Shown: piece by piece, positions 4,729 through 60,500 of the stretch
Numbering within the stretch: the stretch's first letter is position 1
Layout: each line of letters begins with the position of its first letter
Source: Planotetraspora mira
GTDB lineage: Bacteria; Actinomycetota; Actinomycetes; Streptosporangiales; Streptosporangiaceae
NCBI RefSeq assembly: GCF_016863275.1
Contig: NZ_BOOO01000035.1
Coordinates: forward strand, 124,001-188,000
DNA: 64,000 nucleotides
Direction of reading: 5' to 3'
Notes under the pieces: generated by a model
What the model was told of the DNA's origin: nothing
What the model saw: the letters and a program-made list of their open reading frames with translations, nothing else
Database searches by the model: none
Position numbers and translations under genes: made by a program

Positions 4729-6147
4729 ATGGCGGACGACGTCTTCGACGTGATCGTGATAGGTGCGGGACCGGTGGGGGAGATCGCCGCGGCACGTGCC
4801 GTACGGGGTGGTCTGAGCGCGGCCGTCGTCGAAAGGCGCCTGGCCGGCGGCGAGTGCGCCTACTACGCGTGCATCCCGAGTAAGGCGCTGCTGCGGCCCA
4901 TGGGGTTGTCGGCCGAGGTGAGCCGGATGCCGGGACTGGCCTTGCGCGGGCCGATCGACACCGCCGCGGTGCTGGCCCGCCGCGACGAGACCGTCTCCGG
5001 CTTCGACGACGGCGGCCAGGTGAGCTGGATCGGGAACGTCCCCGCGACGTTCGTCCGGGGCCACGGTCGCCTGGCGGGTCCGCTGCGTGCGGAGGTGACG
5101 ACGCCGGACGGCGGCGTCCGGACGCTGGGGGCCCGCCACGCCGTCATCGTGGCGACGGGCAGCGACCCCCTGATCCCCGATGTGCCCGGCCTCCGGGAGG
5201 CGCGTCCTTGGACGAACCGGGAGGCGACCAGCGTCCAGCAGGTCCCGAAACGGCTGGTCGTGATCGGCGGCGGAGTCGTCGGCTGCGAGATGTCACAGGC
5301 CCTGCACGCCCTCGGCGCCCAGGAGACGACCCTGCTCGTGCGGGGCGACCGGCTGCTCGGCCGGACCGAGCCCTTCGCGGGCGACCTGCTGGCGAAGTCG
5401 TTCCAGGAGTCGGGCATCGACGTGCGCTTCGGCCGCTCGCCCACCCGCGTCGAGCGCCCGACGCCGGACGATCCGGTGACCGTCCACCTCGACGACGGCT
5501 CGACGATCGAGGCCGACGAGATCCTCGTCGCCACCGGCCGCCGGGTGAACGTGGGGGACATCGGCCTGGAGACGATCGGGCTCGAGGCGAACGGTCCGAT
5601 CGCGGTCGACGCGAGCATGCGGGCGACGGGGCTCCCCGACGGATGGCTTTACGCCATCGGTGACGTCAACGGCCTCAACATGCTCACGCACATGGGCAAA
5701 TACCAGGCCCGGGTGTGCGGTGACGTGATCGCCGCCCGTGCCGGGGGGCTGCCCGACGACCTGCCGTCGCACCGTGACTCCGCCGACTATCGTGGTGCCC
5801 CGCAGGTCATCTTCACCGACCCCGAGGTCTGCGTGGTCGGGCGCACGGAGTCCCAGGCCCGCGCCGACGGCTTCACCGTGCGCACCGTCGAATACGACAT
5901 GAGCGCGGTCGAGGGGGCCTACCTCATGGCCGAGAACTACACCGGAAGGGCGAAGATGGTCGTCGACGAGGACCGCCGCGTGCTCCTCGGCGTCACCTTC
6001 GTCGCCCCCGCGGTCGTCGACCTCCTCCACTCGGCCACCATCGCGGTGAACGCCGAGGTCCCGATCGACGTGCTGTGGCATGCCGTGCCGTCGTTCCCGA
6101 CCGTGAGCGAGGTCTGGCTCAACCTCCTGGAGGGGTACGGCCTGTGA
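4729..6147 (+). CDS. FAD-dependent pyridine nucleotide-disulfide oxidoreductase
   Basis: The 472-residue enzyme has an N-terminal FAD Rossmann motif (VIGAGPVGEIAAARA, about 10-24) and a redox-active disulfide C43-A-Y-Y-A-C48 inside GGECAYYACIPSK. A second nucleotide-binding motif (VVIGGGVVGCEM) lies near residue 185. The C-terminal dimerisation domain carries the His-Glu pair in WHAVPSFPTVSE (H451, E461). This places it in the class I disulfide reductases with dihydrolipoamide dehydrogenase and mercuric reductase. It lacks the usual GGTCxNxGC wording and the N-terminal metal-binding domain of MerA. No lipoyl enzyme is adjacent, so the true substrate is open. It stands alone at the head of a plus-strand pair with the DUF488 gene. 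Confidence 0.88.
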   Translation: MADDVFDVIVIGAGPVGEIAAARAVRGGLSAAVVERRLAGGECAYYACIPSKALLRPMGLSAEVSRMPGLALRGPIDTAAVLARRDETVSGFDDGGQVSWIGNVPATFVRGHGRLAGPLRAEVTTPDGGVRTLGARHAVIVATGSDPLIPDVPGLREARPWTNREATSVQQVPKRLVVIGGGVVGCEMSQALHALGAQETTLLVRGDRLLGRTEPFAGDLLAKSFQESGIDVRFGRSPTRVERPTPDDPVTVHLDDGSTIEADEILVATGRRVNVGDIGLETIGLEANGPIAVDASMRATGLPDGWLYAIGDVNGLNMLTHMGKYQARVCGDVIAARAGGLPDDLPSHRDSADYRGAPQVIFTDPEVCVVGRTESQARADGFTVRTVEYDMSAVEGAYLMAENYTGRAKMVVDEDRRVLLGVTFVAPAVVDLLHSATIAVNAEVPIDVLWHAVPSFPTVSEVWLNLLEGYGL

Positions 6148-12722: not shown

Positions 12723-13454
12723 ATGACAGACGTGGTTTCTTTGGACGCGGTGAGCAAGGTCTACGGCAAGGGACAGGGCGCGGTCGCCGCCCTGCGAGAG
12801 GTGTCGGCAGGTATCCCGGGAGGCAGTTTCACGGCGGTGATGGGCCCCTCCGGATCGGGCAAGAGCACACTCCTGCACTGCGCCGCCGGGCTGGACACGC
12901 CCACCTCCGGATCCGTACGGCTCGGCGGTACAGAGCTCGCAGGCATGAACGAGACGCGGCTGACCGAGCTGCGCAGACGCCGCGTCGGATTCGTGTTCCA
13001 GGCGTTCAACCTGGTCTCGTCGCTGACAGTGGTCGAGAACATCACGCTTCCCCTGCGGCTGGCCGGCGTCACCGTGGACCGGGCGTGGCTGAAGGAGATC
13101 GTCGAACGGGTGGGCCTCGCCGGCCGCACCGGTCACCGCCCGGCGCAGCTGTCGGGCGGGCAGCAGCAGCGCGTGGCCATCGCCCGTGCGCTGGTCACCA
13201 GGCCGGAGGTGGTGTTCGGCGACGAGCCGACCGGCGCGCTCGACACCATGACCGCCCGTGACGTGCTCGTACTGCTGCGCCAGGTCGTCGACGGGATGGG
13301 CCAGACGGTCGTCATGGTGACGCACGACCCGGTGGCGGCGTCGTACGCGGACACGATCCTGTTCCTGGCCGACGGCCGGATCGTGGACGAGATGACGGAC
13401 CCGACCTCGGAGAAGGTCGCCGAGCGGATGACCCGGCTGGGAGCGTGGAACTGA
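12723..13454 (+). CDS. ABC transporter ATP-binding protein (MacB/LolD type)
   Basis: A 243-residue ATPase with Walker A GPSGSGKST (41-49), Q-loop Gln93, signature LSGGQQQR (143-150), Walker B VVFGDEP (163-169) and an H-loop VTHD. The order and spacing match the MacB/LolD/FtsE-type group that drives FtsX-like permeases. ATG at 12723 is used, with GGTGGAAG just upstream. The next gene starts on the last base of this stop (TGATG), so the two are translationally coupled. The divergent response regulator suggests two-component control, perhaps of antimicrobial peptide or cell-envelope stress export. Confidence 0.93.
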   Translation: MTDVVSLDAVSKVYGKGQGAVAALREVSAGIPGGSFTAVMGPSGSGKSTLLHCAAGLDTPTSGSVRLGGTELAGMNETRLTELRRRRVGFVFQAFNLVSSLTVVENITLPLRLAGVTVDRAWLKEIVERVGLAGRTGHRPAQLSGGQQQRVAIARALVTRPEVVFGDEPTGALDTMTARDVLVLLRQVVDGMGQTVVMVTHDPVAASYADTILFLADGRIVDEMTDPTSEKVAERMTRLGAWN

Positions 13455-15904
13455 TGATCGGATTCGCTCTCAGGACCCTGCGGCACCGCAAGGCCGGATT
13501 CGCGGGCTCGTTCGTCGCCCTGCTGTGCGCCGCCATGCTGGTCTGCGCCTGCGGGATGTTGCTGGAGACCGGGTTGCGCGGCGAGGTCGCCCCCGAGCGC
13601 TACGCCGGCACGCCGGTGATCGTGGCGGGCGACCAGTTCGTCCGGCAGACCGTCCAGAAGTCCGGCGGCAAGTCGAAGACCAAGGCCAAGCCGCACGCCG
13701 AGCACGCCTGGCTGCCCGCATCGCTCGCCACGGCGTTGGGCGAGGTCGCCGGTGTCACCAAGGTGATCAGTGAGGTGACCTTCCCGGTCTACGTCGGGAA
13801 CGGCCGGGCGAGTGGGCACGGGTGGGAGTCGGCGGGGCTCACGCCGTTCACACTGCGTGCCGGAAGCGCCCCGGCGGCCGCCGACGAGGTGGTCGTGGAC
13901 GCCCGCTCCGGCCTCGCCGTCGGCGCTCGGCTGGACGCGGTGACCGCCGCGGGCGCGCGGACCTACCGGGTGACCGGCGTCACCGCGCAGTCCCTGCCCA
14001 GCCAGGACACGCTCTTCTTCAGCACCGCTGAGGCGCGCCGCCTGGCCGGACGGCCCGGCCAGGTGAGCGCCATCGGCGTCTTTCCGCGAGGGGAGGCCTC
14101 CGCCGTGGCGTCGAACGCGTCGGCCGTGCTGAAGGCCGCCCGGGCCTTCGCCCAAACAGGCGACGACCGCGGCACCATCGAGTTCCCCGACGCGGAGCAG
14201 GCGCGGGTGCGCCTGATCAGCCTCGGCGGAGCCCTGGGCGGCACGTCGCTGCTGGTCGCCATCCTCGTGGTGGTGGGCACGTTCGCCCTGTCCATCCAGC
14301 AGCGCGAGAGGGAGATCGCCCTGTTGCGGGCCGTCGCGGCCACCCCCCGGCAGGTGGGCCGGATGCTCGGAGGCGAGGCACTCCTGGTCGCCGCCCTCGC
14401 CGGGTCGGCCGGCTCCGTCGCGGGCATCGGGCTGGGCTTCTGGCTGCGCGACAGGTTCGTCGCGCTGGGCGCCATGCCTGAGCACCTGCGGCTTGTGGTC
14501 AGCCCGTTCCCCACGCTGGCGGCACTGCTGGCCACCATGTTCGCCGCCTGGGCGGCGGCCAGGCTCTCGGCCCGCAGGGCCGCCAGGATCCGCCCCGTTG
14601 AGGCGCTCGGTGAGGCGGCCCTGCCGGGGACCAGGCCGTCCTGGGGGCGGATGATCGCCGGTCTGGTCTGTGTGGGCGGCGGCGTGGCGCTGACCATCGT
14701 GTTGTCGGCGTTGTCGGTGGAGGCCGCGTCGAGTCCGGTGACCATGCTCACCGCACTGGTCTGGACGACCGCCGTGGCGCTGCTCGGCCCGGTCGTCGCC
14801 CGAGCCGCGACCGGTCTGCTCGGCGTGCCGTTGCGTCTTTCCAGAGTCGGCGGCCACCTGGCCGCCGCGAACCTGCGAACCGGGTCCAGGCGACTGGCGT
14901 CCGTCATCACGCCGCTCACCCTGCTGACGGCGATGACCTGCACGATCCTGTTCGTCCAGACCACGATGGGGCACGCCGCCGAGCGGGAGGCCGCAGCCGG
15001 GGGCCGCGCCGACTACGTCCTCGGCCCCCACCTCCCGGGGTCCGCCGCGCAGGCGCTGCGCGAGACGCCCGGTGTGCTCGCGGTCACCGAGGTGCTGCGC
15101 ACGTCGGTGCGGGTCGGCCTGGAGAAGTACGGCGCGCAGGCGGTCACCCCGGAAGGGCTGGACCGGACCGTCGACCTGGGTGTGGTGGCGGGCTCGCTCA
15201 GGGACCTCGGCCAGGACGGCGTCGCGGTGAGCGAGACCGCGGCCGCACGCCTGGGCGTCGCGGTGGGCGGGCGGATCCCCCTCACCCTGGGCGACGGAAC
15301 GCCCATGACGCCGACCGTCGTGGCGATCTATGCCAGGGGTCTGGGATACGGCGACCTCACGCTCTCCCACGCGCTGGTCGCACCGCACGTGGACGACGCG
15401 CTCGGCACCCTGCTCGTCTCCGCTCCCACCCTCCCGCGGGCCGCGATCACCGCGGCCGTTCCGGGGGCCGCCGTGCTCGACCAGGCTCAGGCGGTGGAAA
15501 CGGCCGCGCCCAACGCCGAGGTCAACTACGTGGCCATGGGCCTGATCATCGCGTTCACCGCGATCGCCGTGGTCAACACCCTGGCGATGTCGACGTCGGA
15601 CAGGTCGCGTGAGCTCGCGCTGCTCCGCCTGGTCGGCACCACCCGCCGCCAGGTGCTGCGCATGCTGAGGCTGGAGACGCTCACGGCGGTCGTGGTCGCC
15701 GTGGTCCTCGGAACCGGGATCTCGCTGGTCACGCTGTCGGCGTTCAGTGCGGGCATGACCGGGTCGGCCGTGCCGTACGTTCCGCCGTTCACCTACCTGG
15801 CGGTGGTCGCCGTCGCGGCGATCCTGGCGCTGGCCGCCACCGCGATCCCGGCCAGGCTCGTCCTCCGGCAGCGGCCCGCGGACGCGATCGGGGCGCGTCA
15901 GTGA
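13454..15904 (+). CDS. FtsX-like ABC transporter permease
   Basis: An 816-residue permease with an N-terminal membrane helix and a large extracytoplasmic domain. Two FtsX cores follow: one around residues 255-400 with LSIQQREREIALLRAVAATPRQVGRML, and one at the C terminus with RELALLRLVGTTRRQVLRMLRLE. About eight to ten membrane helices are expected. This is the single-chain form of the MacB-type permease common in actinomycetes. ATG at 13454 overlaps the ATPase stop by one base; GTG at 13445 is an alternative. It forms the transporter with the preceding ATPase, substrate unknown. Confidence 0.92.
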   Translation: MIGFALRTLRHRKAGFAGSFVALLCAAMLVCACGMLLETGLRGEVAPERYAGTPVIVAGDQFVRQTVQKSGGKSKTKAKPHAEHAWLPASLATALGEVAGVTKVISEVTFPVYVGNGRASGHGWESAGLTPFTLRAGSAPAAADEVVVDARSGLAVGARLDAVTAAGARTYRVTGVTAQSLPSQDTLFFSTAEARRLAGRPGQVSAIGVFPRGEASAVASNASAVLKAARAFAQTGDDRGTIEFPDAEQARVRLISLGGALGGTSLLVAILVVVGTFALSIQQREREIALLRAVAATPRQVGRMLGGEALLVAALAGSAGSVAGIGLGFWLRDRFVALGAMPEHLRLVVSPFPTLAALLATMFAAWAAARLSARRAARIRPVEALGEAALPGTRPSWGRMIAGLVCVGGGVALTIVLSALSVEAASSPVTMLTALVWTTAVALLGPVVARAATGLLGVPLRLSRVGGHLAAANLRTGSRRLASVITPLTLLTAMTCTILFVQTTMGHAAEREAAAGGRADYVLGPHLPGSAAQALRETPGVLAVTEVLRTSVRVGLEKYGAQAVTPEGLDRTVDLGVVAGSLRDLGQDGVAVSETAAARLGVAVGGRIPLTLGDGTPMTPTVVAIYARGLGYGDLTLSHALVAPHVDDALGTLLVSAPTLPRAAITAAVPGAAVLDQAQAVETAAPNAEVNYVAMGLIIAFTAIAVVNTLAMSTSDRSRELALLRLVGTTRRQVLRMLRLETLTAVVVAVVLGTGISLVTLSAFSAGMTGSAVPYVPPFTYLAVVAVAAILALAATAIPARLVLRQRPADAIGARQ

Positions 15905-16001
15905 CCGGGCCGAAAATCTTTTTTGGAGTTGTTTGTAACACTTAGGGGTCTCGGCCCACTTCCTCCTGTCGGAACAAACACCGGGACGAAGGGGGCAGGC
16001 G

Positions 16002-16529
16002 GTGACGGACGATTCTCAACGGTTCACCACCATCTATGACGAGTGCCGCCAGCGAGTATGGGCCTACGTGGTCAGCCAAGCGGGCCGGCAAGTCGCGGAT
16101 GAGGTGGTGAGCGAGACGTTCGCGATCGCCTGGCGGCGGTTCGACGACGTGCCCGACCCCGCCCTGCCGTGGCTGCTCGGCGTCGCCCGCAACGTGCTGC
16201 GTGACAACATCCGCGCCGAGATCAGGCGCGAGTCGCTCGCCGCCGAGCTGCGGGCCTGGACCGAAGAGGACCACGCCGAGTGGGTGGCCGAACGACTGGC
16301 CGTCGTCAACGCGCTGGCCGCCTTGACCCAGGAGGAGCGCGAGCTCCTGATCCTCGTGGCCTGGCAGGGGCTCACCCCCCGCGACGCGGCGCGTGTCATC
16401 GGCTGCTCACCGGCGGCCTTCCGCGTGCGCCTGCACCGTGCCCGCAAGCGGCTGGTCCAGGCGATGAAGACGGCCCCGGTGGCCCGTTCCCAGTCCCGAG
16501 TGCGCAATCTCAGTGAGGAGTGGTCATGA
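16002..16529 (+). CDS. ECF-type RNA polymerase sigma factor
   Basis: The 175-residue protein has sigma region 2 (VADEVVSETFAIAWRRFDDVPDPALPWLLGVARNVL) and region 4 (LTQEERELLILVAWQGLTPRDAARVIGCSPAAFRVRLHRARKRL), with nothing else. GTG at 16002 follows AAGGGGGCAGG. The ATG of the next gene overlaps this stop (ATGA), so the sigma factor and the CU044_5270 membrane protein are made together. No classic zinc-binding anti-sigma factor is present, so the partner may be the regulator. The upstream TTTGTAACACTT segment at about 15930-15941 could be part of a promoter, which I infer only from its position. Confidence 0.9.
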   Translation: MTDDSQRFTTIYDECRQRVWAYVVSQAGRQVADEVVSETFAIAWRRFDDVPDPALPWLLGVARNVLRDNIRAEIRRESLAAELRAWTEEDHAEWVAERLAVVNALAALTQEERELLILVAWQGLTPRDAARVIGCSPAAFRVRLHRARKRLVQAMKTAPVARSQSRVRNLSEEWS

Positions 16530-17677
16530 ACCCGATGGATCAGCTGCGGTCGGCGCGCCCGGCTCACCTCGACACCCCGGTGGACGAGGGAACGAGGGCC
16601 GCCGAGCTCACCCACGCCATGGCGCAGTTCAGGCAGACCAAGCCTGCCCACGCCCGGAAGATCGCCAAGCCGGTGTGGGGTCTCGGCCTGGCCGGCGTCG
16701 CGGCGGCGACCGCCGTCGCGGTCGGGGTCACCGCGACCGGTGGAACGACCTCGGCGCCGAGCGCGCCGGCCGTCGCCCAGGGCGGCACGCAGGGTGGCAC
16801 GCAGTCGCCCGCCGTCAAGCTCTCCGCGAAGCAGGTCCTCCTGGTCGCGGCCGAGTCGTCGCTGAAGGCCAAGGCGGGCAGTGGCGCGTACTGGCACATC
16901 GAGAGCACGAGCGGCAACGCCACCACTGTGGGCACCAAGGTGCAGTACATGGTGAACAGCCTTGGCAAGAGCGAGACGTGGATCGCCCGTTCACCGAAGG
17001 TCGACAGCTGGTGGGTCTCACAGAACCTGGGCACCAAGGCCGCCCCCGGCTCGGAGGCCGCCTGGAAGCAGGACGGCTCGCCGACCAAGTGGACGGTGAA
17101 GATGCCCAAGAATGGCGGCACCGCCAAGCTGCTGATCGACGCGAAGGGCGGCAAGCCCTTCGGCAACCCGATCAACGTCGGCGACAAGGTCGCCGACCTG
17201 GCCGGGAAGAACGTCTCGTTCGCCGAGCTCCAGAAGCTGCCCACGACCGCGGCCGCGCTGAAGGCGCGTCTGCTGAAGGGATACACCGGCAACAGCACCG
17301 AGGCCGACGTGCCACAGGAGAAGGACGCCTGGCTCTTCCAGGTGACCGCCGGCGTGCTGAGCGACATGCCCGTGAAGCCGGCCGTCCGGGCCGCGGCCTA
17401 CGAGGTGCTCGCCGGGCTGAACGACGTCCGGTCCCTCGGCGAGGTGACCGACGCCCTCGGACGCAAGGGCCAGGGCATCGGCAGGTCGGAGAGCTGGCCC
17501 AACGGTCAGTACGAGCGGCAGCTCATCATCGACCCGCAGACCGGCCTTCTGCTGACCGACCAGATCGTGGCCGTGCACGCCGGCGGCAACTGGGCCGGGG
17601 CGAAGCCGGGCACCGTCGTCAACTACAACGCGATCACCAAGGCCGCGTGGACGGACGAGAAGCCCGTCAAGCCGTAA
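16526..17677 (+). CDS. CU044_5270 family membrane protein, sigma-factor partner
   Basis: This 383-residue protein starts with MNPMDQLRSARPAHLDTP, the N-terminal wording typical of the CU044_5270 family. It has an Arg/Lys-rich cytoplasmic head and one membrane helix (about 54-74, LGLAGVAAATAVAVGVTATG). A long extracytoplasmic domain follows, with repeated Trp- and Lys-rich strands. The ATG overlaps the sigma-factor stop. This topology, with a small cytoplasmic head, one helix and an outer domain, is what a membrane anti-sigma factor would need, but no anti-sigma domain is recognisable. It is followed by a strong hairpin terminator. Confidence 0.85.
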   Translation: MNPMDQLRSARPAHLDTPVDEGTRAAELTHAMAQFRQTKPAHARKIAKPVWGLGLAGVAAATAVAVGVTATGGTTSAPSAPAVAQGGTQGGTQSPAVKLSAKQVLLVAAESSLKAKAGSGAYWHIESTSGNATTVGTKVQYMVNSLGKSETWIARSPKVDSWWVSQNLGTKAAPGSEAAWKQDGSPTKWTVKMPKNGGTAKLLIDAKGGKPFGNPINVGDKVADLAGKNVSFAELQKLPTTAAALKARLLKGYTGNSTEADVPQEKDAWLFQVTAGVLSDMPVKPAVRAAAYEVLAGLNDVRSLGEVTDALGRKGQGIGRSESWPNGQYERQLIIDPQTGLLLTDQIVAVHAGGNWAGAKPGTVVNYNAITKAAWTDEKPVKP

Positions 17678-52906: not shown

Positions 52907-55048
52907 ATGACAGCGCGGATCGAGCTCGACATCGCCGGCATGACGTGCGCCTCCTGCGCGGGCAGGATCGAGCGCAAGCTCAACAAGCTCGACGGCGTGA
53001 GCGCCGCGGTCAACTACGCCACGGAGAAGGCCAGCGTGGTCTTCCCGGACGATCTCGACCACCGTGAGCTGATCGCTCAGATCGAGAAGGCCGGGTACTC
53101 GGCCGCACTGCCCGAGGCGGAGCCCGTCACGCCGCGCGACACGCTGGAAGACCGCCTGATCCTGTCGCTCCTGCTGGCCGTCCCGGTCATCGCGGTGGGC
53201 ATGGTCCCGGCGTTCCGGTTCCCCGGATGGGAGTGGTTCTCCCTGACGCTCACCACGCCCGTCGTCGCCTACGGCGGCCGGCCGTTCCACCAGGCCGCCT
53301 GGGTCAACCTCCGGCACGGTGCCGCGACGATGGACACCCTGATCTCGCTCGGCACCCTCGCCGCGTACGCCTGGTCGTCATGGGCCCTGCTCGCCGGGCC
53401 CCCGTCGGGCCACACCTATCTCGAGGTGGCGGCGGGTGTGACGGTGTTCATCCTGGCCGGGCGGTACTTCGAGGCGAGGGCCAGGCGCCGGGCGGGAAGC
53501 GCGCTGCGCGAGCTGATGGAACTGGGCGCAAAGGACGTCACGGTGATCCGTCAGGGCGCCGAGACTCGCGTCCCGATCGGGATGCTGCAGGTCGGCGACG
53601 AGTTCGTCGTACGGCCGGGCGAGAAGATCGCCACTGACGGCGTCATCGTCGAAGGGGTGTCGGCCGTCGACGCGGGCATGCTCACCGGCGAGTCGGTGCC
53701 GGCCGAGGTCGGGCCGGGTGACATGGTCACCGGCGCCACGCTGAACGAGAGCGGCAGGCTCGTCGTCCGGGCCGCACGGGTCGGTGCGGACACCCAGCTC
53801 GCGCGGATCGCGGCTCTCGTGGCCGAGGCCCAGTCGGGCAAGGCCGCGGTCCAGCGCCTCGCCGACCGGGTCTCCGGCGTCTTCGTGCCCGTCGTGATCG
53901 TGCTGGCGGCCGCCACGCTCGTGTCCTGGCTCGCCGCGGGCGGCGGGGTGGTGCACGCCTTCACCGCGGCCGTCGCGGTGCTGATCATCGCCTGCCCGTG
54001 CGCGCTCGGCCTCGCGACTCCCACGGCCCTGCTCGTCGGCACGGGCCGGGGTGCGCGGCTCGGCATCCTGATCAAGGGCCCGGAGGTCCTCGAACGGGCA
54101 AGGAAGATCGACACTGTGGTCCTGGACAAGACCGGGACGGTGACCACCGGCCGGATGTCGCTGACGGCGGTCATGGCCGCCGACGGTGAGTCGGCCGGGG
54201 AGGTCCTGCGGATGGCGGGAGCCGTCGAGCACGCGTCCGAGCATCCCGTCGCCAGGGCTGTCGCCGCCGCCGCCCGTGAGGCGGGTCACCGGCTCCCCGC
54301 GGTCGAGGAGTTCGAGAGCCTTCCCGGGCTCGGCGTCCGGGGTGTCGTGGAGGGCCGGGTCGTGCTGGCCGGCCGCCGTGCGCTGCTCGCGGGGACACGG
54401 CACCTGCCGCCCGCGGTCGAGGAGGCGCTCGCCGCCGCCGAGGCCGCAGGAGGTACGGCCGTGGCCGTCGGCTGGGACGGCGTCCCCCGAGGCGTCCTCG
54501 TCGTGTCCGACACGATCAAGGAGACGTCGGCGAGAGCCGTACGGGATCTGCGGGACCTCGGGCTGGTCCCGATCCTGCTCACCGGGGACAACCGCGCCGC
54601 CGCCGACGCCGTGGCGGGCTCCGTCGGCATCGAGCAGGTGATCGCCGAGGTGCTGCCCGCGGACAAGGTCGAGGTGGTCAAGCGGCTCCAGGCCGAGGGA
54701 CGCGTGGTGGCCATGGTCGGCGACGGGGTCAACGACGCCGCGGCGCTGGCCCAGGCGGACCTGGGTCTGGCCATGGGCACGGGGGCCGACGCGGCGATCG
54801 AGGCCGCCGACGTGACCCTCGTCAGAGGCGACCTCCGCGTGGCCGCGGACGCCGTCCGACTGTCCCGCCGGACGCTGAGGACCATCAGAGGCAACCTCTT
54901 CTGGGCCTTCGCCTACAACGTGGCCGCGCTCCCGATGGCGGCGGCCGGATGGCTCAACCCCATGATCGCCGGTGCCGCCATGGCCCTGTCGAGCGCGTTC
55001 GTCGTCACCAACAGCCTCCGCCTCCGCCACTTCCACCCCCACCCATGA
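52907..55048 (+). CDS. copA: copper-exporting P-type ATPase CopA
   Basis: The 713-residue P1B-ATPase has one N-terminal HMA domain with C14-A-S-C17 and membrane helices. The CPC metal-transport motif is at 363-365 ([10 protein letters not shown]), the phosphorylation site DKTGT at D407, and the HP motif is in [10 protein letters not shown]. It pumps Cu(I) out of the cell. Only one HMA domain is present; some homologues have two. It is in an operon with copZ under the CsoR-like site, and its 3' end runs into the tandem array at 55066. Confidence 0.97.
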
Positions 55049-55065
55049 TCACACCCTCCCTTGCC

Positions 55066-55247
55066 CGTGATCATGCACAGGTTCGTGGAAATGCGGTGTG
55101 ACGTGCGCCAACCTCGCGCGTGATCATGCACAGGTTCGTGGGGATGCGGTGTGACGTGCGCCAACCCCGTCCGTGATCATGCGCACATTCGTGAACATGC
55201 CCCGCGACCTGGGCGAATCCCCGCCGTGATCATGCACGTACGGGTCA
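55066..55247 (+). repeat. 53-bp-period tandem array (left arm)
   Basis: Units start at 55066, 55119, 55172 and 55225, an exact 53-base period. Units 1 and 2 share the core CGTGATCATGCACAGGTTCG followed by TG and are nearly identical over the full unit; unit 3 is diverged, and unit 4 keeps only about the first 14 bases and is cut by the GH20 stop. It lies between the convergent copA and GH20 genes. The same array exists in inverted orientation on the other side of the GH20 gene (56887-57098). Confidence 0.93.
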
Positions 55248-56879
55248 CATGCTGGGACGGGTGGACTCGGCCGAGTGGGTCATCTCGTCGAGGTGGTTCA
55301 TCACCTCGTGGACGAGCACGACCTCCGGCCGGTGCCGCCGCCACCCCGTCCCGCCCCGCTGCCAGGGATGAGGGCCCGCCAGAGGCCGGTACTCCACGCC
55401 GAAGGCGTCCAGCCGTACGAGATGGGCGCCGAGACGCCGCAGGAAATCCGCGCCTACGGCAGGCTCTCCCGCCCAGGTGATCTCGGCCGCGGCGCACCCG
55501 CGAGGCCACGCACGATAGTCCAGCGTGCGGCTGTCGGGGATGCGCTCGCTCCAGAGTTGGAACTGCGCGCCGATCACCCGGGCACGCTCGTCCGGCGTCC
55601 ATTCGGCGGGCGCCGGAGCGAAGCCGGCGACGTCCTCGACGGTGACCGTGTCGCCGATCCCCACGGGCTCCTCGTCGGAGGCGGCCTCGGTGTAGTCGAA
55701 GTACATCGGGAAGACGGACGTCGCCACGACATCGTGTCCCGCGGCCGCCGCGCGGCGGCCGACTCCCTGACCGCGCCACGGCATGACGACCGTGTCCTGT
55801 CGCAACAGGCCGCTGACGAACGCCTCGTCCCATACGACGGCACGGCTGCCGCGCTCGGCCAGCACGTCCGCAAGCCGCCTCAGGAACCAGGCGTGCATGT
55901 CACCGGGTGTTTCCAGGCCCAGCTCCGCTTGGTACGCGGAGATCTCGGGGGAGGACGCCCAGTCGTCCAGCACGCATTCGTCTCCGCCGATGTGGAAGTA
56001 CGGAACCGAGCCCAGCGCCCCGATGATCTCATCGAACACCGTGGCCAGGAACTCGACGGTGGCGGGCAGCGGAGAGAGGATCGCCGGCGAGACGCCCCAG
56101 CGGTCGAGGACCTCGTACGGCTCGCCGGGCTTGGCGCCGAGCGACGGATAGGCGGCCAGGATCGCCGAAGCGTGCCCGGGCACGTCGATCTCCGGGACGA
56201 TCGTGACCGCCCGGGCCCGCGCGTAGGCGGAGATCTCCGTCAGATCGGACAGCGTGTAGAAGCCGCCGTGCGGCATTCCGTCGAAGGTGGACTCTTCGCC
56301 GAAGGGGCTGGTCGTGGTCTGCGCCCGGTGGGACCCGACCTCGTGCAGCAGCGGGAACGCCCGGCTCTCGACCCGCCATCCCTGGTCGTCGACCAGATGG
56401 AGGTGGAGCCGGTTGAGCTTGTGGAGCGCCAGCAGATCGATCATCCGCAGCACATCACGCTTAGGAAGGAAATGTCGGGAGATATCCATGTGGGCGCCTC
56501 GCCACGAGAACCCCGGAGCATCCTCAATGCGGCCTGCAGGGAGCGTCCATGAAGTTCCGGGCAATTGTGCGGACCGGAACGCCTCGGCGGGCAGAAGCTG
56601 CCTCAGCGTCTGCCCCGCGTAGAAGGCGCCCGCGGACCCGCCCGCGACGATCAGCACCGATTCCGCCGTGATCGTGACGCGGTACGCCTCGTCCCCCAGG
56701 CCGGGGTCCTGTTCCACCCGCACCGCCGCCGTCTCAGCAGGTCGCAGGTCCAGTACGGCCAGAGCCAGCCGTACGGAGTCGACGAGATGACCGGGACCGG
56801 AGACGCCGGCGCCGGGCGCGAGCACGAACGATCCCGGCGCCTTTTCGGCCAGCTTGGGACGGGGAAGCAGGTAATCCAT
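55245..56879 (-). CDS. glycoside hydrolase family 20 beta-N-acetylhexosaminidase
   Basis: The 544-residue enzyme has an N-terminal GH20b domain (VLAPGAGVSGPG ... AGGSAGAFYAGQTLRQLL) and a GH20 barrel. The catalytic Asp-Glu pair lies in PYFHIGGDECVLDDW, and HMDISRHFLPKRDVLRMIDLLALHKLNRLHLHLVDDQGWR is the family signature. It releases terminal N-acetylglucosamine or N-acetylgalactosamine. No signal peptide is evident, suggesting it works on imported sugars, for example from chitin or peptidoglycan recycling. Start MDYLLPRPK at 56879 has only a weak ribosome site. The gene is bracketed by inverted 53-bp arrays. Confidence 0.93.
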   Translation of the reverse strand: MDYLLPRPKLAEKAPGSFVLAPGAGVSGPGHLVDSVRLALAVLDLRPAETAAVRVEQDPGLGDEAYRVTITAESVLIVAGGSAGAFYAGQTLRQLLPAEAFRSAQLPGTSWTLPAGRIEDAPGFSWRGAHMDISRHFLPKRDVLRMIDLLALHKLNRLHLHLVDDQGWRVESRAFPLLHEVGSHRAQTTTSPFGEESTFDGMPHGGFYTLSDLTEISAYARARAVTIVPEIDVPGHASAILAAYPSLGAKPGEPYEVLDRWGVSPAILSPLPATVEFLATVFDEIIGALGSVPYFHIGGDECVLDDWASSPEISAYQAELGLETPGDMHAWFLRRLADVLAERGSRAVVWDEAFVSGLLRQDTVVMPWRGQGVGRRAAAAGHDVVATSVFPMYFDYTEAASDEEPVGIGDTVTVEDVAGFAPAPAEWTPDERARVIGAQFQLWSERIPDSRTLDYRAWPRGCAAAEITWAGEPAVGADFLRRLGAHLVRLDAFGVEYRPLAGPHPWQRGGTGWRRHRPEVVLVHEVMNHLDEMTHSAESTRPSM

Positions 56880-56886
56880 ACCCCAG

Positions 56887-57098
56887 ATCATGCCAAACGG
56901 CCCGAATCGCCTTGACACCCGCTTCCTCGCATGATCACGAAATGGAAAGCGCCAGGTCAGAGAGCCTGCGACCGAACTTGCGCATGATCACGAATCGAGA
57001 AAGCCCAGCTAGGGCCGCATATTCACGAACCTGTGCATGATCACGCCCAGGGTTGGGGCACGTCAGGAGGCATTTCCACGAACCTGTGCATGATCACG
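56887..57098 (-). repeat. 53-bp-period tandem array (right arm, inverted)
   Basis: Reading the minus strand, units begin at 57098, 57045, 56992 and 56939, again an exact 53-base period. The two outermost units carry the full core CGTGATCATGCACAGGTTCG plus TG; the inner units are degraded. Compared with the left arm, the outermost units match over most of the 53 bases. The array lies between the amidase stop and the GH20 start and so includes the GH20 promoter region. Confidence 0.93.
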
Positions 57099-57123
57099 CG
57101 CGAGGGGGTGGGGTGACCTGGGG

Positions 57124-57984
57124 TCAGGTGAGGTAGTTCTGGAGGCCCTTGGCGAGGGATTCGGCGATGCGCTGGCGGAAGGCGGCGCTCTTGAACTTGG
57201 CCGCCTCGCTCGCGTTGCGCATGTTCCCGCACTCGATGAAGATCTTAGGAACGGTCGAAAGGTTGAGCCCGCCGAGGTCCTTCCGGTAGTCGAGCGCGCT
57301 CTTCCCGATGTAGGTCGAGTACGGCAGGCCCGTCCCCGAGTGGAACGCGTTTCTGACGTCGATGCCGAGCTTCTTGGAGGCGCCCACGACCGGGTCGACC
57401 GGCCCGTGGATCTTCTGCGGCATGATGATGTGGAAGCCGTGCGCGCTCGCCGGGGCGCCGTCCCCATGGATGGAGATCGCGGCGTTGGCCTTGGCCTTGT
57501 TGCCGATCGCCGCCCTCTGGGTGATGCACGGGCCCGCGCCGGTGTTGTTCTTGCGCGTCAGCTTGACCGTGGCGCCCTTGGCCTTGAGAAGTTTGGCCAG
57601 CCGGTTCGAGACGTCCCAGGTGAACGAGGCTTCGGAATACCCGTCGTTCGTCGCCGTCCCTGTGGTGTCGCAGGCCTTCCACTGGGTGAGGACGTTGACC
57701 TGCTTGTTGATGATCTCAGGGTGCTTGAAGTTGCCCCCGTTGTGGCCGGGGTCGATCACGATGACCTTGCCGGCGAGGGGGCGTGTCGGCCTCTTCTTGG
57801 CGGCTTTCGACGGAAGGGTCTTGGCCGGGTTCGCGTTCTGATCGGTCACCCCTGTGACCTGGGAGGTCGCGGCCGCAGGCTCCGTGACAGCCTTGGTCGC
57901 GTCCGAGTTCGCCGTGCCGCCGCAGGAGGCGGCTCCCAGCCCGGCCAGGACGAGAGCTGCGGCGGCAAGTTTGCGACTGGTCAC
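57124..57984 (-). CDS. N-acetylmuramoyl-L-alanine amidase (Amidase_3) lipoprotein
   Basis: The 286-residue protein has a signal peptide with lipobox AASC (Cys21), a Thr/Ala/Lys linker and an Amidase_3 catalytic domain. Zinc ligands are H81 in VIDPGHNGG, E118 in YSEASFTW and H173 in ISIHGDGAP; the catalytic Glu is E250 in FIECGNMRN. It cleaves the amide between muramic acid and L-alanine, splitting or remodelling peptidoglycan at the cell surface. GTG at 57984 has GAAGGGA upstream. It is on the same strand as GH20, separated by the right arm of the array. Confidence 0.93.
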   Translation of the reverse strand: MTSRKLAAAALVLAGLGAASCGGTANSDATKAVTEPAAATSQVTGVTDQNANPAKTLPSKAAKKRPTRPLAGKVIVIDPGHNGGNFKHPEIINKQVNVLTQWKACDTTGTATNDGYSEASFTWDVSNRLAKLLKAKGATVKLTRKNNTGAGPCITQRAAIGNKAKANAAISIHGDGAPASAHGFHIIMPQKIHGPVDPVVGASKKLGIDVRNAFHSGTGLPYSTYIGKSALDYRKDLGGLNLSTVPKIFIECGNMRNASEAAKFKSAAFRQRIAESLAKGLQNYLT

Positions 57985-58050
57985 GGCAAGATCCCTTCAC
58001 GGAGGTCTGTCGCTTCCCAACCTACGTGTAGAAGGGGCGTAATCAGACCG

Positions 58051-58317
58051 TTATGCCGTGAAACGAGATTCCCAAACAGGCTCCGCGACGTCTTGCTTGT
58101 GCAAGAGGGCGGCCAATTCCCGGGCATCTTCCGCGTCGAGCCCCAGCACCACGCGCGGCCGTCCCCAGGGATGGTCGATCGAATGGGCGACGTAGCTCGC
58201 CACGGACTCGGCTATGTCCTCGGCGTGCAGCCCACGAGCCTCGCGCCAGTAGGCCCACGCCCGCTCGAGCTCACCCGCGGCACGCTGGGCGCAGGAGACC
58301 AACTCCGGATCACGCAT
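58051..58317 (-). CDS. small conserved hypothetical protein
   Basis: The 88-residue protein reads MRDPELVSCAQRAAGELERA ... LGLDAEDARELAALLHKQDV and is mostly helical with an Ala/Glu/Arg pattern. ATG at 58317 has GGGGGG about 5 bases upstream. I do not recognise a domain family. It lies between the amidase and LacI genes on the same strand. Confidence 0.7.
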   Translation of the reverse strand: MRDPELVSCAQRAAGELERAWAYWREARGLHAEDIAESVASYVAHSIDHPWGRPRVVLGLDAEDARELAALLHKQDVAEPVWESRFTA

Positions 58318-58375
58318 GAATCCCCCCGATTTTCGTGGAAATAGTCGCCGACCTGACGGGTCCCCCCGATGTCTG

Positions 58376-58392
58376 CGACCCGCCGGGGGTCG
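58376..58392. terminator. short hairpin after the LacI gene
   Basis: CGACCC (58376-58381) pairs with GGGTCG (58387-58392) around a five-base loop, between the LacI stop and the next minus-strand gene. The short stem makes it a weak candidate. Confidence 0.35.
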
Positions 58393-58444
58393 GCGTCACA
58401 GTCGGAGTCAACACCGTCCGCGATTCGACACGTCGGCGGTTGAC

Positions 58445-59548
58445 CTAGCTTTGGGGATCGCTTGGAACGGGGCAGGTGCTCCGGCGGACGATCAGCTGAG
58501 GGGTCACCTGGCGCAGGCGGGCGGCCTTGCCCGGCTCGGTGATGCGGTCGCTGAGCAGAGCGGCGGCCGAACGGCCCATCGCTCTGCGGGGCTGGTCGAC
58601 GCTGGTCAGCGAGATGTGGTTGACCGCCGCAAGATGAGTGTTGTCGTATCCGACGACGGACAGGTCCTCGGGGACGCGCAGGCCCAACTCGCTCGCCGCG
58701 GTGAGAACGCCCATGGCCACGATGTCGTTCGCCGCGAATATGGCGGTGGGGCGTGGGTCGCGGGCCAGCAGTGCACGCGCCGCGCGCCGTCCGCCCTCTT
58801 CGGTGAAGTCTCCGTGCTCGACCATGATGTACGGCGCCAGCGCGTGGCGGCGCATGGCCACCAGATAACCCTCACAGCGGTAACGGGCCGCGGAGGAGGG
58901 GGTGCCCTCGATGTGGGCGATGCGCCGGTGGCCCAACTCGACCAGGTGATCGATCGCGAGTCGGGCGCCTAATTGGTCGTCGTCCACGACGATGTCGACG
59001 CCGCCGAGCGAGACGTCGCGCTCGCCGACCACGACCGTGGGCGTGTACGCGGAGGCCTCCGCGAGCGTGGAGCTTGAGGGAGCGACGCCGAGCAGGACGA
59101 GCCCGTCGACCCGGAGTTCGAGAAAGGCCTCCACGGCCTCGTCCTCGAACGCGGGGTCCCAGCGCCCGCTGCCGATCAACAGCCGGAGGCCGTCGCCGTG
59201 CAGGCTCTCCTGGAGGCCGTCGAGGAACTCGGCGTAGAAGGGGTTGTGGAGGTCGGCCACCAGAGCGCCCACGAGGTGGGTCCGGCCCTCGACCAGGCTG
59301 CGGGCCACGGCGTTGGGGCGGTAACCGAGCTCTCTGGCGGCCTGCAGGACCGCCTCCCGGCGATGCTCGCTGACGTGTGACGAACCCCTGAGCACGAGGG
59401 ACACCAGCGACTTCGAGACGCCGGCGCGCTCAGCCACGTTGCGGATCGTCGGCCGTGGCCGCGGACTGAACCCCTCGGACAAGCCACCGTCGGGCAGCGA
59501 ACCCGCGACGTCGTTCCGGGCAGTGGTCTGCATGGACGGTCCTGACAT
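58445..59548 (-). CDS. LacI-family transcriptional regulator
   Basis: The 367-residue regulator has an N-terminal LacI HTH (PTIRNVAERAGVSKSLVSLVLRGSSHVSEHRREAVLQAARELGYRPN). A periplasmic-binding-protein-like sugar-binding domain follows (VGALVADLHNPFYAEFLDGLQE, IFAANDIVAMGVLTAASELGLRVPEDLSVVGYDN). ATG at 59548 (MSGPSM) is chosen because GGGGAGAACC precedes it. Divergent from the TetR gene at 59796. It has no adjacent sugar operon in the window, so its target is unknown. Confidence 0.92.
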   Translation of the reverse strand: MSGPSMQTTARNDVAGSLPDGGLSEGFSPRPRPTIRNVAERAGVSKSLVSLVLRGSSHVSEHRREAVLQAARELGYRPNAVARSLVEGRTHLVGALVADLHNPFYAEFLDGLQESLHGDGLRLLIGSGRWDPAFEDEAVEAFLELRVDGLVLLGVAPSSSTLAEASAYTPTVVVGERDVSLGGVDIVVDDDQLGARLAIDHLVELGHRRIAHIEGTPSSAARYRCEGYLVAMRRHALAPYIMVEHGDFTEEGGRRAARALLARDPRPTAIFAANDIVAMGVLTAASELGLRVPEDLSVVGYDNTHLAAVNHISLTSVDQPRRAMGRSAAALLSDRITEPGKAARLRQVTPQLIVRRSTCPVPSDPQS

Positions 59549-59795: not shown

Positions 59796-60500
59796 GTGGG
59801 TGCCACATCCCAGGCCGAAAACGACCCGGATCGGGCGGCCGGAGCGCGGCCCGCGCGGCGCCGGCTCAGCGTCGACCGCAGGCGCGAGGAACTGATCGCG
59901 GCCGCGCTGGAGCTGTTCAGCAGGCGCGACGCGGAGGATGTCTCGATAGATGACGTCGCCACCGCGGCGGGTGCCTCGCGAGCGCTCGTCTACCACTACT
60001 TCGGTGGCAAGCAGGAGCTCTATGTGGCGGCGCTGCGCAGCGCGGCGAAGGAGCTCGAGGCCCGGCTCAGGCCGCAGGAAGGCGGAAACCCTCTCGATGA
60101 GTTGTCGCGCGGGCTGGCGCGATACTTCGACTTCGTGGAAGAGCACGCGGCGGGCTTCGCGGCGCTGCTCAGAGGCGGCCCGGCGAACCGGGCGGGGGAG
60201 ATCGGCGAGATCGTCGACGGGGTACGGCAGCGCCTCTTCCGGCTCGTCATGAACCAGCTTCGTGTCGGCGTGCCCGGACCCGTCTTGCGGATCACCCTCA
60301 GATCGTGGATCGCATCAGTGGAGACGGCCGGCCTCGACTGGCTGGAGCATCGGGACATCGACCGGCCCGAACTGGAGCGGCTGCTCATGGACCAGATGGT
60401 CGCCCTGCTCGAGGTGGCGGCACGTCGTGATCAGGACGCGGAACACCTGCTCGAATCTCCAAGGCGGAGGACCGACCGGGTGACGTCTGACGATCAGTGA
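59796..60500 (+). CDS. TetR-family transcriptional regulator
   Basis: The 234-residue regulator has an N-terminal Arg-rich tail and a TetR HTH (REELIAAALELFSRRDAEDVSIDDVATAAGASRALVYHYFGGKQELYVAAL). A C-terminal ligand-binding/dimerisation domain follows with FDFVEEHAAGFAALLRGG and the GLDWLEHRDIDRPELERLL helix. GTG at 59796 fits a leaderless start. It is divergent from the LacI gene. The target gene is not known; autoregulation is likely. Confidence 0.92.
   Translation: MGATSQAENDPDRAAGARPARRRLSVDRRREELIAAALELFSRRDAEDVSIDDVATAAGASRALVYHYFGGKQELYVAALRSAAKELEARLRPQEGGNPLDELSRGLARYFDFVEEHAAGFAALLRGGPANRAGEIGEIVDGVRQRLFRLVMNQLRVGVPGPVLRITLRSWIASVETAGLDWLEHRDIDRPELERLLMDQMVALLEVAARRDQDAEHLLESPRRRTDRVTSDDQ

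Follow-up and report, generated by a model that had tools for sequence, protein, structure and literature searches.

Inward-facing 53-bp arrays form a dispersed intergenic family in Planotetraspora that includes the two arms around a GH20 gene

Results

Two inverted arrays at a GH20 locus

The window analysed here was a stretch of 64,000 nucleotides from Planotetraspora mira (contig NZ_BOOO01000035.1, positions 124,001 to 188,000), in which a gene for a beta-N-acetylhexosaminidase-like protein lay between two oppositely directed arrays of 53-bp units (Table 1). An earlier note, made from the letters alone, had assigned this gene to GH20, and a PF00728 match with an E value of 1.4e-97 confirmed it. 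The array coordinates, the exact spacing of 53, the common period and the inverted symmetry of the two arms were also read correctly there. The count of four units per arm had to be reduced to three full units, since the fourth, on the gene side, was only a short core followed by unrelated sequence. The outermost units had been described as alike between the arms; this was true of P. mira, where the best left-right linker identity was 0.76, but not of five relatives (0.45-0.64, which are upper bounds with a few off-register core matches included).

A 14-base core (CGTGATCATGCACA, at most 2 mismatches) matched 7 times in the window, every time inside the two GH20 arms, and shuffled sequence gave 0.45 matches on average and 3 at most. 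The two arms were the sole arrays with at least 2 cores on the window's contig, of which 224,000 of 224,322 bases were read. Elsewhere in the window, positions 504-1213 held a tandem repeat with a 150-bp unit, presumably of the RCC1-type beta-propeller kind.

Table 1. Features of the GH20 locus, in window coordinates
Feature	Position	Strand	Remarks
Heavy-metal P-type ATPase gene	52907..55048	+	17 bp from stop to left arm
C-rich leader before left arm	55049..55065	+	From the window sequence and the composition of arms as a class
Left arm	55066..55236	+	Three 53-bp units (55066, 55119, 55172) and a closing bare 12-bp core at 55225
GH20 beta-N-acetylhexosaminidase-like gene between the arms	55245..56918	-	PF00728, PF02838; by synteny an ordinary gene, ancestral here
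Right arm	56928..57098	-	Three 53-bp units (57098, 57045, 56992) and a closing bare 12-bp core at 56939
C-rich leader before right arm	57099..57123	-	
N-acetylmuramoyl-L-alanine amidase gene	57124..57984	-	25 bp from stop to right arm

Architecture of the arms

Read 5' to 3' on its own strand, an arm consisted of a C-rich leader, units at a 53-bp pitch and a bare core at the inner end. The unit was composed of CGTGATCATGCACAggTTCG, a linker, a second box (box 2, YGACCtGC) at positions 34-41 and a second linker, with the next core at 53. The 12-bp core of the arm (R12) was CGTGATCATGCA, with TTCG after it. Arrays had 2-6 detected cores, with 3-5 in 84 of 87 arrays (a stretch from P. kaengkrachanensis included), and the spacing of cores was exactly 53 in 263 of 271 cases; single spacings of 51-53 were seen in the genome G176 and in Planotetraspora sp. 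A-T 1434. Linkers of adjacent units were 53% identical, versus about 46% between unrelated units. Because adjacent linkers were barely more alike than unrelated ones, the units appeared to be old, and yet their pitch had not drifted. A length of 53 bp corresponds to about five turns of B-DNA.

The leader (about 60 nt on the arm strand) had a C content of 0.41-0.57 and a G content of 0.16-0.25 and ended roughly in CCCtccgG. Over 25 nt in 78 arms the values were 0.54 for C and 0.18 for G, compared with 0.36 and 0.34 after 1,680 predicted stops. Isolated copies of GTGATCATGC outside arrays numbered 9 in 1.919 Mb, 7 of them within coding sequence.

Several familiar identities were considered and rejected. 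A protein-coding repeat was incompatible with a period indivisible by three and with the position of the arrays between predicted genes. A CRISPR array did not fit either, since the linkers were not unrelated but had a common consensus (YGACCtGC and others) at fixed positions. A hairpin within the unit between AGGTTCG and YGACCTG lost its partner in 12 sampled P. thailandica units, where box 1 was GAAGTTCG and box 2 was unchanged. Avoidance of the TGATCA site was contradicted by 731 sites outside arrays versus 249 expected in all. Carriage by phages or plasmids was not indicated: three matches in the viral_contigs set were, by inspection, unrelated low-complexity repeats, and 4 plasmid records gave short matches over 10-16% of the query.

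The earlier note knew of no named element of this form, and none was found. A search of Rfam with window positions 54000-58500 (E up to 1) gave no match to the arrays; its sole match, at chance level, was to Flavivirus_SLIV within the ATPase gene. Nine other element loci (E up to 0.5) likewise gave no array match, with one sub-threshold ZMP/ZTP match about 1.3 kb off. This riboswitch-like match, at 2829-2933 on the minus strand of locus L029, scored 37.3 bits versus a gathering score of 39.

Distribution in the genus and the order

The consensus search across this genome and its relatives that the earlier note had proposed returned hundreds of copies in Planotetraspora and in G176. Namely, a 20-base core (at most 3 mismatches) had 717 copies in P. 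mira, 663 in P. kaengkrachanensis, 259 in P. phitsanulokensis, 735 in P. silvatica and 744 in P. thailandica, with 0-1 matches for reversed-pattern controls. Among 200 genomes drawn from the order, hundreds of copies beyond Planotetraspora occurred only in G176 (507), and the other 194 genomes had 0-14. The GH20 arrays are two single arms of this dispersed intergenic family, which we call inward-facing 53-bp arrays. The count in P. phitsanulokensis was about one third of the 663-744 of its congeners, and natural loss of a putative binding factor is a possible cause of this low copy number.

A looser pattern (GTGATCWNGYA...GTGATCWNGYA at 52-54 bp) was matched in 16 of 345 genomes of the order, and its reversed control in 0. 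There were 99 to 728 matches in the five Planotetraspora genomes, 382 in G176, 29 in G127, 135 in G283 and 2 in G172. Among 15 genomes of a Microbispora-type genus (g2), 5 had matches (54, 63, 36, 195 and 6); the array-bearing g2 genomes are G018, G100, G104, G136 and G162. Single matches in G214 and G080 look like chance, and G127 and G283 resemble Sphaerimonospora. A Sphaerimonospora locus (L092) had two cores 53 bp apart (CGTGATCTTGCA and CGTGATCTCGCA) located 3' of GH20 and pointing at it. Consensus cores drawn from only 72 printed rows were GTGATCTTGcAG...CTCGCA in the genus g34 and GTGATCtTGtAgtttgtCgca in g2; ACCTG, matched by a loose motif, stood at the place of box 2 in 18 of 22 g34 rows and in 36 of 50 g2 rows. 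Judged from these sequences, arrays with other cores and the same layout occur in Sphaerimonospora, in a Microbispora-type genus and in a further genus, and the layout appears to be retained while the putative recognition letters differ by genus.

Orientation and genomic setting

We surveyed 1.919 Mb of six P. mira contigs (parts of C1, C2, C4, C15, C35 and C13) and defined a compact element as a plus-strand array followed by a minus-strand array with at most 200 bp between the innermost detected cores. The survey contained 24 compact elements, each within one intergenic gap, and 21 single arms, giving 45 array positions among 1,435 intergenic gaps. Neighbouring arrays faced inwards: all 24 pairs within 1 kb were inward and 0 were outward, and within 5 kb there were 27 inward pairs, one ++ and one --. 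In other sets, where five pairs from P. kaengkrachanensis were mostly counterparts of P. mira elements and some stretches had been picked for listed core matches, 17 of 18 neighbours within 1 kb were inward and the remaining one was ++. Single arms alternated in direction along contigs at 13 of 16 neighbours (one-sided p 0.011), which is suggestive only.

The earlier note asked whether other copies flank single genes. Bracketing proved to be a minority form, since inward pairs 1.0-1.8 kb apart numbered 3 in the 1.919 Mb versus 24 compact pairs. The arrays had no special tie to GH20; this gene sits between two single arms. The left and right gene ends around compact elements were start/stop in 8 cases, stop/stop in 7, stop/start in 5 and start/start in 4, and a gene stop faced the outer side of 14 of the 21 single arms and the inner side of 11. 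Since the flanking ends were so mixed, arrays were not strictly tied to gene direction. A gene start, not a stop, lay on the outer side of 28 of 69 arms. The flanking genes were themselves mixed, and no common function emerged. Among 78 proteins from five contigs, encoded by genes of 150-4,500 bases that lay complete within the stretches, any one Pfam family was found in two at most. The inner distances of elements were spread when judged by eye, and phasing of one arm relative to the other on the helix was rejected as well.

A compact element of the Microbispora type (L183, G100:C10, about 5362-5600) formed a near-perfect palindrome around its cores and had identical 22-bp outer ends; it may show a young form of the element.

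Left-right similarity and strand pairing

Left and right units of equal rank were 0.55 identical, versus 0.486 for different rank and 0.458 for random pairs, and a few near-identical pairs drove the excess. For five short brackets, two of which (C8a and C20) had been fetched for looking like brackets, the mean identity between partners was 0.554, compared with 0.464 for unrelated arms. The strongest of them, C8a, held a stretch in which we read a transposase-like fragment. Array pairs 15-149 kb apart had no similarity between partners and were rejected as brackets. At locus L141 (about 13400-17560), arms bracketed 3.8 kb with a transposase-like fragment inside, and one unit pair had identical linkers; the bracketed DNA may have entered a compact element by insertion.

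It had also been suggested that a read-through transcript could fold into a long duplex. More generally, the arms might act by strand pairing, with a transcript or extruded DNA forming a long hairpin or with the GH20 arms pairing to each other. Strong pairing was predicted for the GH20 arms (-225 kcal/mol versus -96 for shuffled arms), and some central hairpins were perfect over 16-21 bp. Two of them (C15:257005 and C4:176688) carried, by eye, the identical core change in both arms, a better fit to strand pairing, or to templated correction of a palindrome, than to free protein sites. The palindromic Microbispora-type element agrees with pairing as well. However, left-right matching of linkers across the family was 0.42-0.48 versus 0.34-0.42 expected and was not confined to stem positions. 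Because this barely exceeded expectation, the predicted pairing stems mainly from the repeated core, and the RNA duplex was not supported. Moreover, 14 one-arm changes were found versus 0 matched ones in 1,420 cells, a count over detected cores only that drops altered cores and so misses the two matched cases. The arrays had no Rfam match, and single arms are unable to fold in this manner. Strand pairing is thus disfavoured overall, and we consider it improbable.

Conservation in place and the mobile-element alternative

Array positions were mostly conserved between P. mira and P. kaengkrachanensis. Of the 13 positions on contig C1, 12 had a counterpart, 7 between the same two orthologs, 3 with one common ortholog and 2 by order and distance only; the exception, at 60117, had an ortholog for only one of its flanking genes. 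The type of array (compact or single) and its direction agreed at all 12 counterparts. In 39 paired units, the two species differed by 3.2% in R12, 4.5% in TTCG, 20.2% in box 2 and 41% in the linker, the core value being biased low because detection relied on R12 and each unit was matched to the partner with the highest overall identity; TTCG had no part in detection. Positions 13-16 differed by 25.6% in these units.

The core letters were lineage-specific. P. thailandica had G at position 13 and A at position 15 in 12 of 12 units (a small sample from one 96-kb contig), and the type found in G176 and sp. A-T 1434 had C at position 20 in 22 of 22 units (also a small sample). The GH20 arms agreed: CAGAAGTTCG was present in 4 of 6 full units of P. 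thailandica and TTCC in 3 of 3 full units of sp. A-T 1434. Long gene-conversion tracts between loci hardly explain such letters, because the linkers were mostly unique to each unit; very short tracts may be a source. Cores that followed a changed, putative binding protein would account for lineage letters at common places.

The strongest rival to protein-bound sites is a fixed, formerly mobile element, a history that would allow its later recruitment as binding sites. Compact elements would then be the remains of a MITE-like non-autonomous transposon with multi-site ends that spread long ago. Tn7, Mu and IS21-type elements have ends with several transposase-binding sites each, and the arms resemble them in carrying several directly repeated, putative protein sites per end, with the ends mutually inverted. 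The high copy number and the uneven occurrence within a single genus (5 of 15 g2 genomes) point the same way, as does GTTTGTCGC, which followed the GTGATCTTGTA start in 19 of 22 printed Microbispora-type units versus 4 of 28 others, like a terminal repeat. Against this stand the 12 of 13 positions common to two species and the lack of target-site duplications in 41 compact elements (lengths 3, 4, 5, 6, 8 and 9, offsets -8 to +4; the largest excess was 3 versus 1.9 expected). Inverted repeats at two ends were found in the 24 compact elements but not in the 21 single arms, which make up 21 of 45 positions. The letters were lineage-specific at common places, and both the core and TTCG seem to be under constraint. 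In four of the five short brackets, those other than C13, the contents were ordinary genes plus, in C8a, one transposase-like fragment. In contrast to the ends of Tn7, Mu or IS21, the arrays are mostly fixed in position, often single, without target duplication and without a common cargo gene. We regard a former transposon as a serious but clearly less probable reading.

History of the GH20 locus

Arms flanked GH20 on both sides in six Planotetraspora genomes (five species and sp. A-T 1434), which disposed of an assembly artefact, the danger raised in the earlier note. The amidase and GH20 genes were adjacent at 18 of 18 named loci, with LacI next in 17 (the remaining one, L101, was too short). 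Thirteen of the 18 came from Sphaerimonospora, Microbispora, Microtetraspora and Nonomuraea; 12 of these 13 had no GTGATCWNGYA core, and L092 had only its 3' arm. Since the adjacency was common to outgroup loci mostly without cores, it predates the arms. A metal ATPase neighbour was present at four named Planotetraspora loci, and sp. A-T 1434 had the left arm without it. Because the outgroup loci had one arm or none and this left arm persisted without the ATPase, the arms belong to two intergenic gaps and were, judging from these sequences, probably gained separately. A single unit copied and inverted around GH20, as first proposed, did not agree with this record. The one-armed state in Sphaerimonospora may be due to loss of an arm. 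Near the LacI gene of sp. A-T 1434 (L091, 1091-1336) there was a second, compact element, which was not seen at the four other named Planotetraspora loci.

The number of cores per GH20 arm varied from 2 to 5 across the six genomes, so this locus has an intergenic tandem repeat with a variable unit number. Neutral repeats of the VNTR or MIRU-like kind, expanding and shrinking in intergenic gaps, would behave in this way. MIRUs, likewise intergenic tandem repeats of actinobacteria, have units of similar length in variable copy number and abut flanking genes; our comparison with them is by description. However, strict inward pairing, a fixed period with unrelated linkers and constraint on the core are not expected of neutral repeats. 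To our knowledge, MIRUs do not form inward-facing pairs as the 53-bp arrays do, and neutral expansion is an improbable account of the family.

Comparison with REP elements and ArgR sites

REP and BIME elements, which a RAYT (Y1) transposase mobilizes and which serve as binding sites, have the same general look. In the part of the literature consulted (PMC2817692), they are extragenic, inverted and lineage-specific, exceed 100 copies, are bound by IHF, gyrase and Pol I, and help Rho to terminate transcription; for our arrays, binding by host proteins is putative. They differ in being short palindromes, compared with a directional 53-bp unit that is not palindromic as a whole, direct arrays of units pointing one way within each arm, and inward neighbours. 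Furthermore, seven of the eight genomes searched (P. mira, P. kaengkrachanensis, P. phitsanulokensis, P. silvatica, G176, G100 and G162) had no PF01797 (Y1) match with an E value of 0.001 or below, and a REP/RAYT origin is weakened because P. mira and G176, with hundreds of arrays, have no Y1 match. We consider such an origin very improbable. P. thailandica was the only one of the eight genomes with Y1 matches (4, one with internal stops).

Another likeness concerned arginine repressor sites. According to the portion of PMC5839063 drawn on here, the 12-mer GTGATCATGCAC of the array core also occurs in the Streptomyces coelicolor ARG box at SCO5864, and Streptomyces ARG boxes are 20 bp long and single, contiguous or separated by 1 nt, or by 10 nt at one promoter. 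Unlike our arrays, the sites described there do not form 53-bp arrays, and other array lineages carry GTGATCTTG cores. ArgR-like recognition is a lead, and such a protein a candidate for the array-binding factor.

Discussion

We propose that the arms are DNA binding arrays for a lineage-specific putative protein, most likely serving as a boundary or transcription insulator, and we give this proposal an even chance of being right. A sequence-specific protein would bind each core on the same helix face and multimerise along the arm. The C-rich, G-poor strand entering the arm from outside, which we take to resemble a Rho-loading site, could load Rho, and an inward pair would halt transcription from both outsides. 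At GH20, the arms would shield the gene from read-through of the ATPase and amidase genes. The boundary or insulator role appears the likeliest given the inward orientation of nearby arms and the Rho-site-like leader on the entering strand. Protein-bound arrays at the DNA level would explain the conserved core and pitch, the free linkers, the indifference to gene direction and the lineage-specific cores. The sequences themselves establish the family, its architecture, its conservation in place, the lineage letters at common positions and the inward orientation; protein binding, phasing, insulation and the role of Rho are what we infer.

Some observations do not favour this proposal. The gene starts outside 28 of 69 arms are not explained by insulation from read-through, and such an insulator would have no need of them. 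The restriction of arrays to 45 of 1,435 gaps counts against an insulator. Patchiness within one genus (5 of 15 g2 genomes) fits a mobile element equally, and the C-rich leader could reflect a preference for certain sites of insertion.

Among the matches listed by literature searches there was no paper on a 53-bp array family, and a word search of the genus genome paper (PMC11431748) gave no match to words for repeats, palindromes or intergenic sequence. Repeats that are abundant, extragenic and bound by host proteins are known as a class from REP and BIME elements, at least as covered in the consulted part of PMC2817692. As far as the literature and Rfam searches go, the array architecture and the inward rule are apparently new.

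In this group of soil actinobacteria, hundreds of directional arrays with a strict 53-bp pitch, inward pairing, positions retained between species and lineage-specific letters point to a trans-acting factor. More speculatively, and by analogy, they might constitute a lineage-wide actinobacterial chromosome boundary system, in which a dedicated, fast-evolving putative protein would bridge inward partners, or recognise them jointly, over distances from a few dozen bp up to several kb; we hold this broader reading to be rather unlikely. It would be an analogue, in logic and not by homology, of convergent insulator sites. Thus, the arrays raise testable questions, namely what reads them and whether convergent pairs of sites serve bacteria as boundaries. 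The array-bearing species and ten array-free species within the single genus g2 provide a natural experiment for finding the factor.
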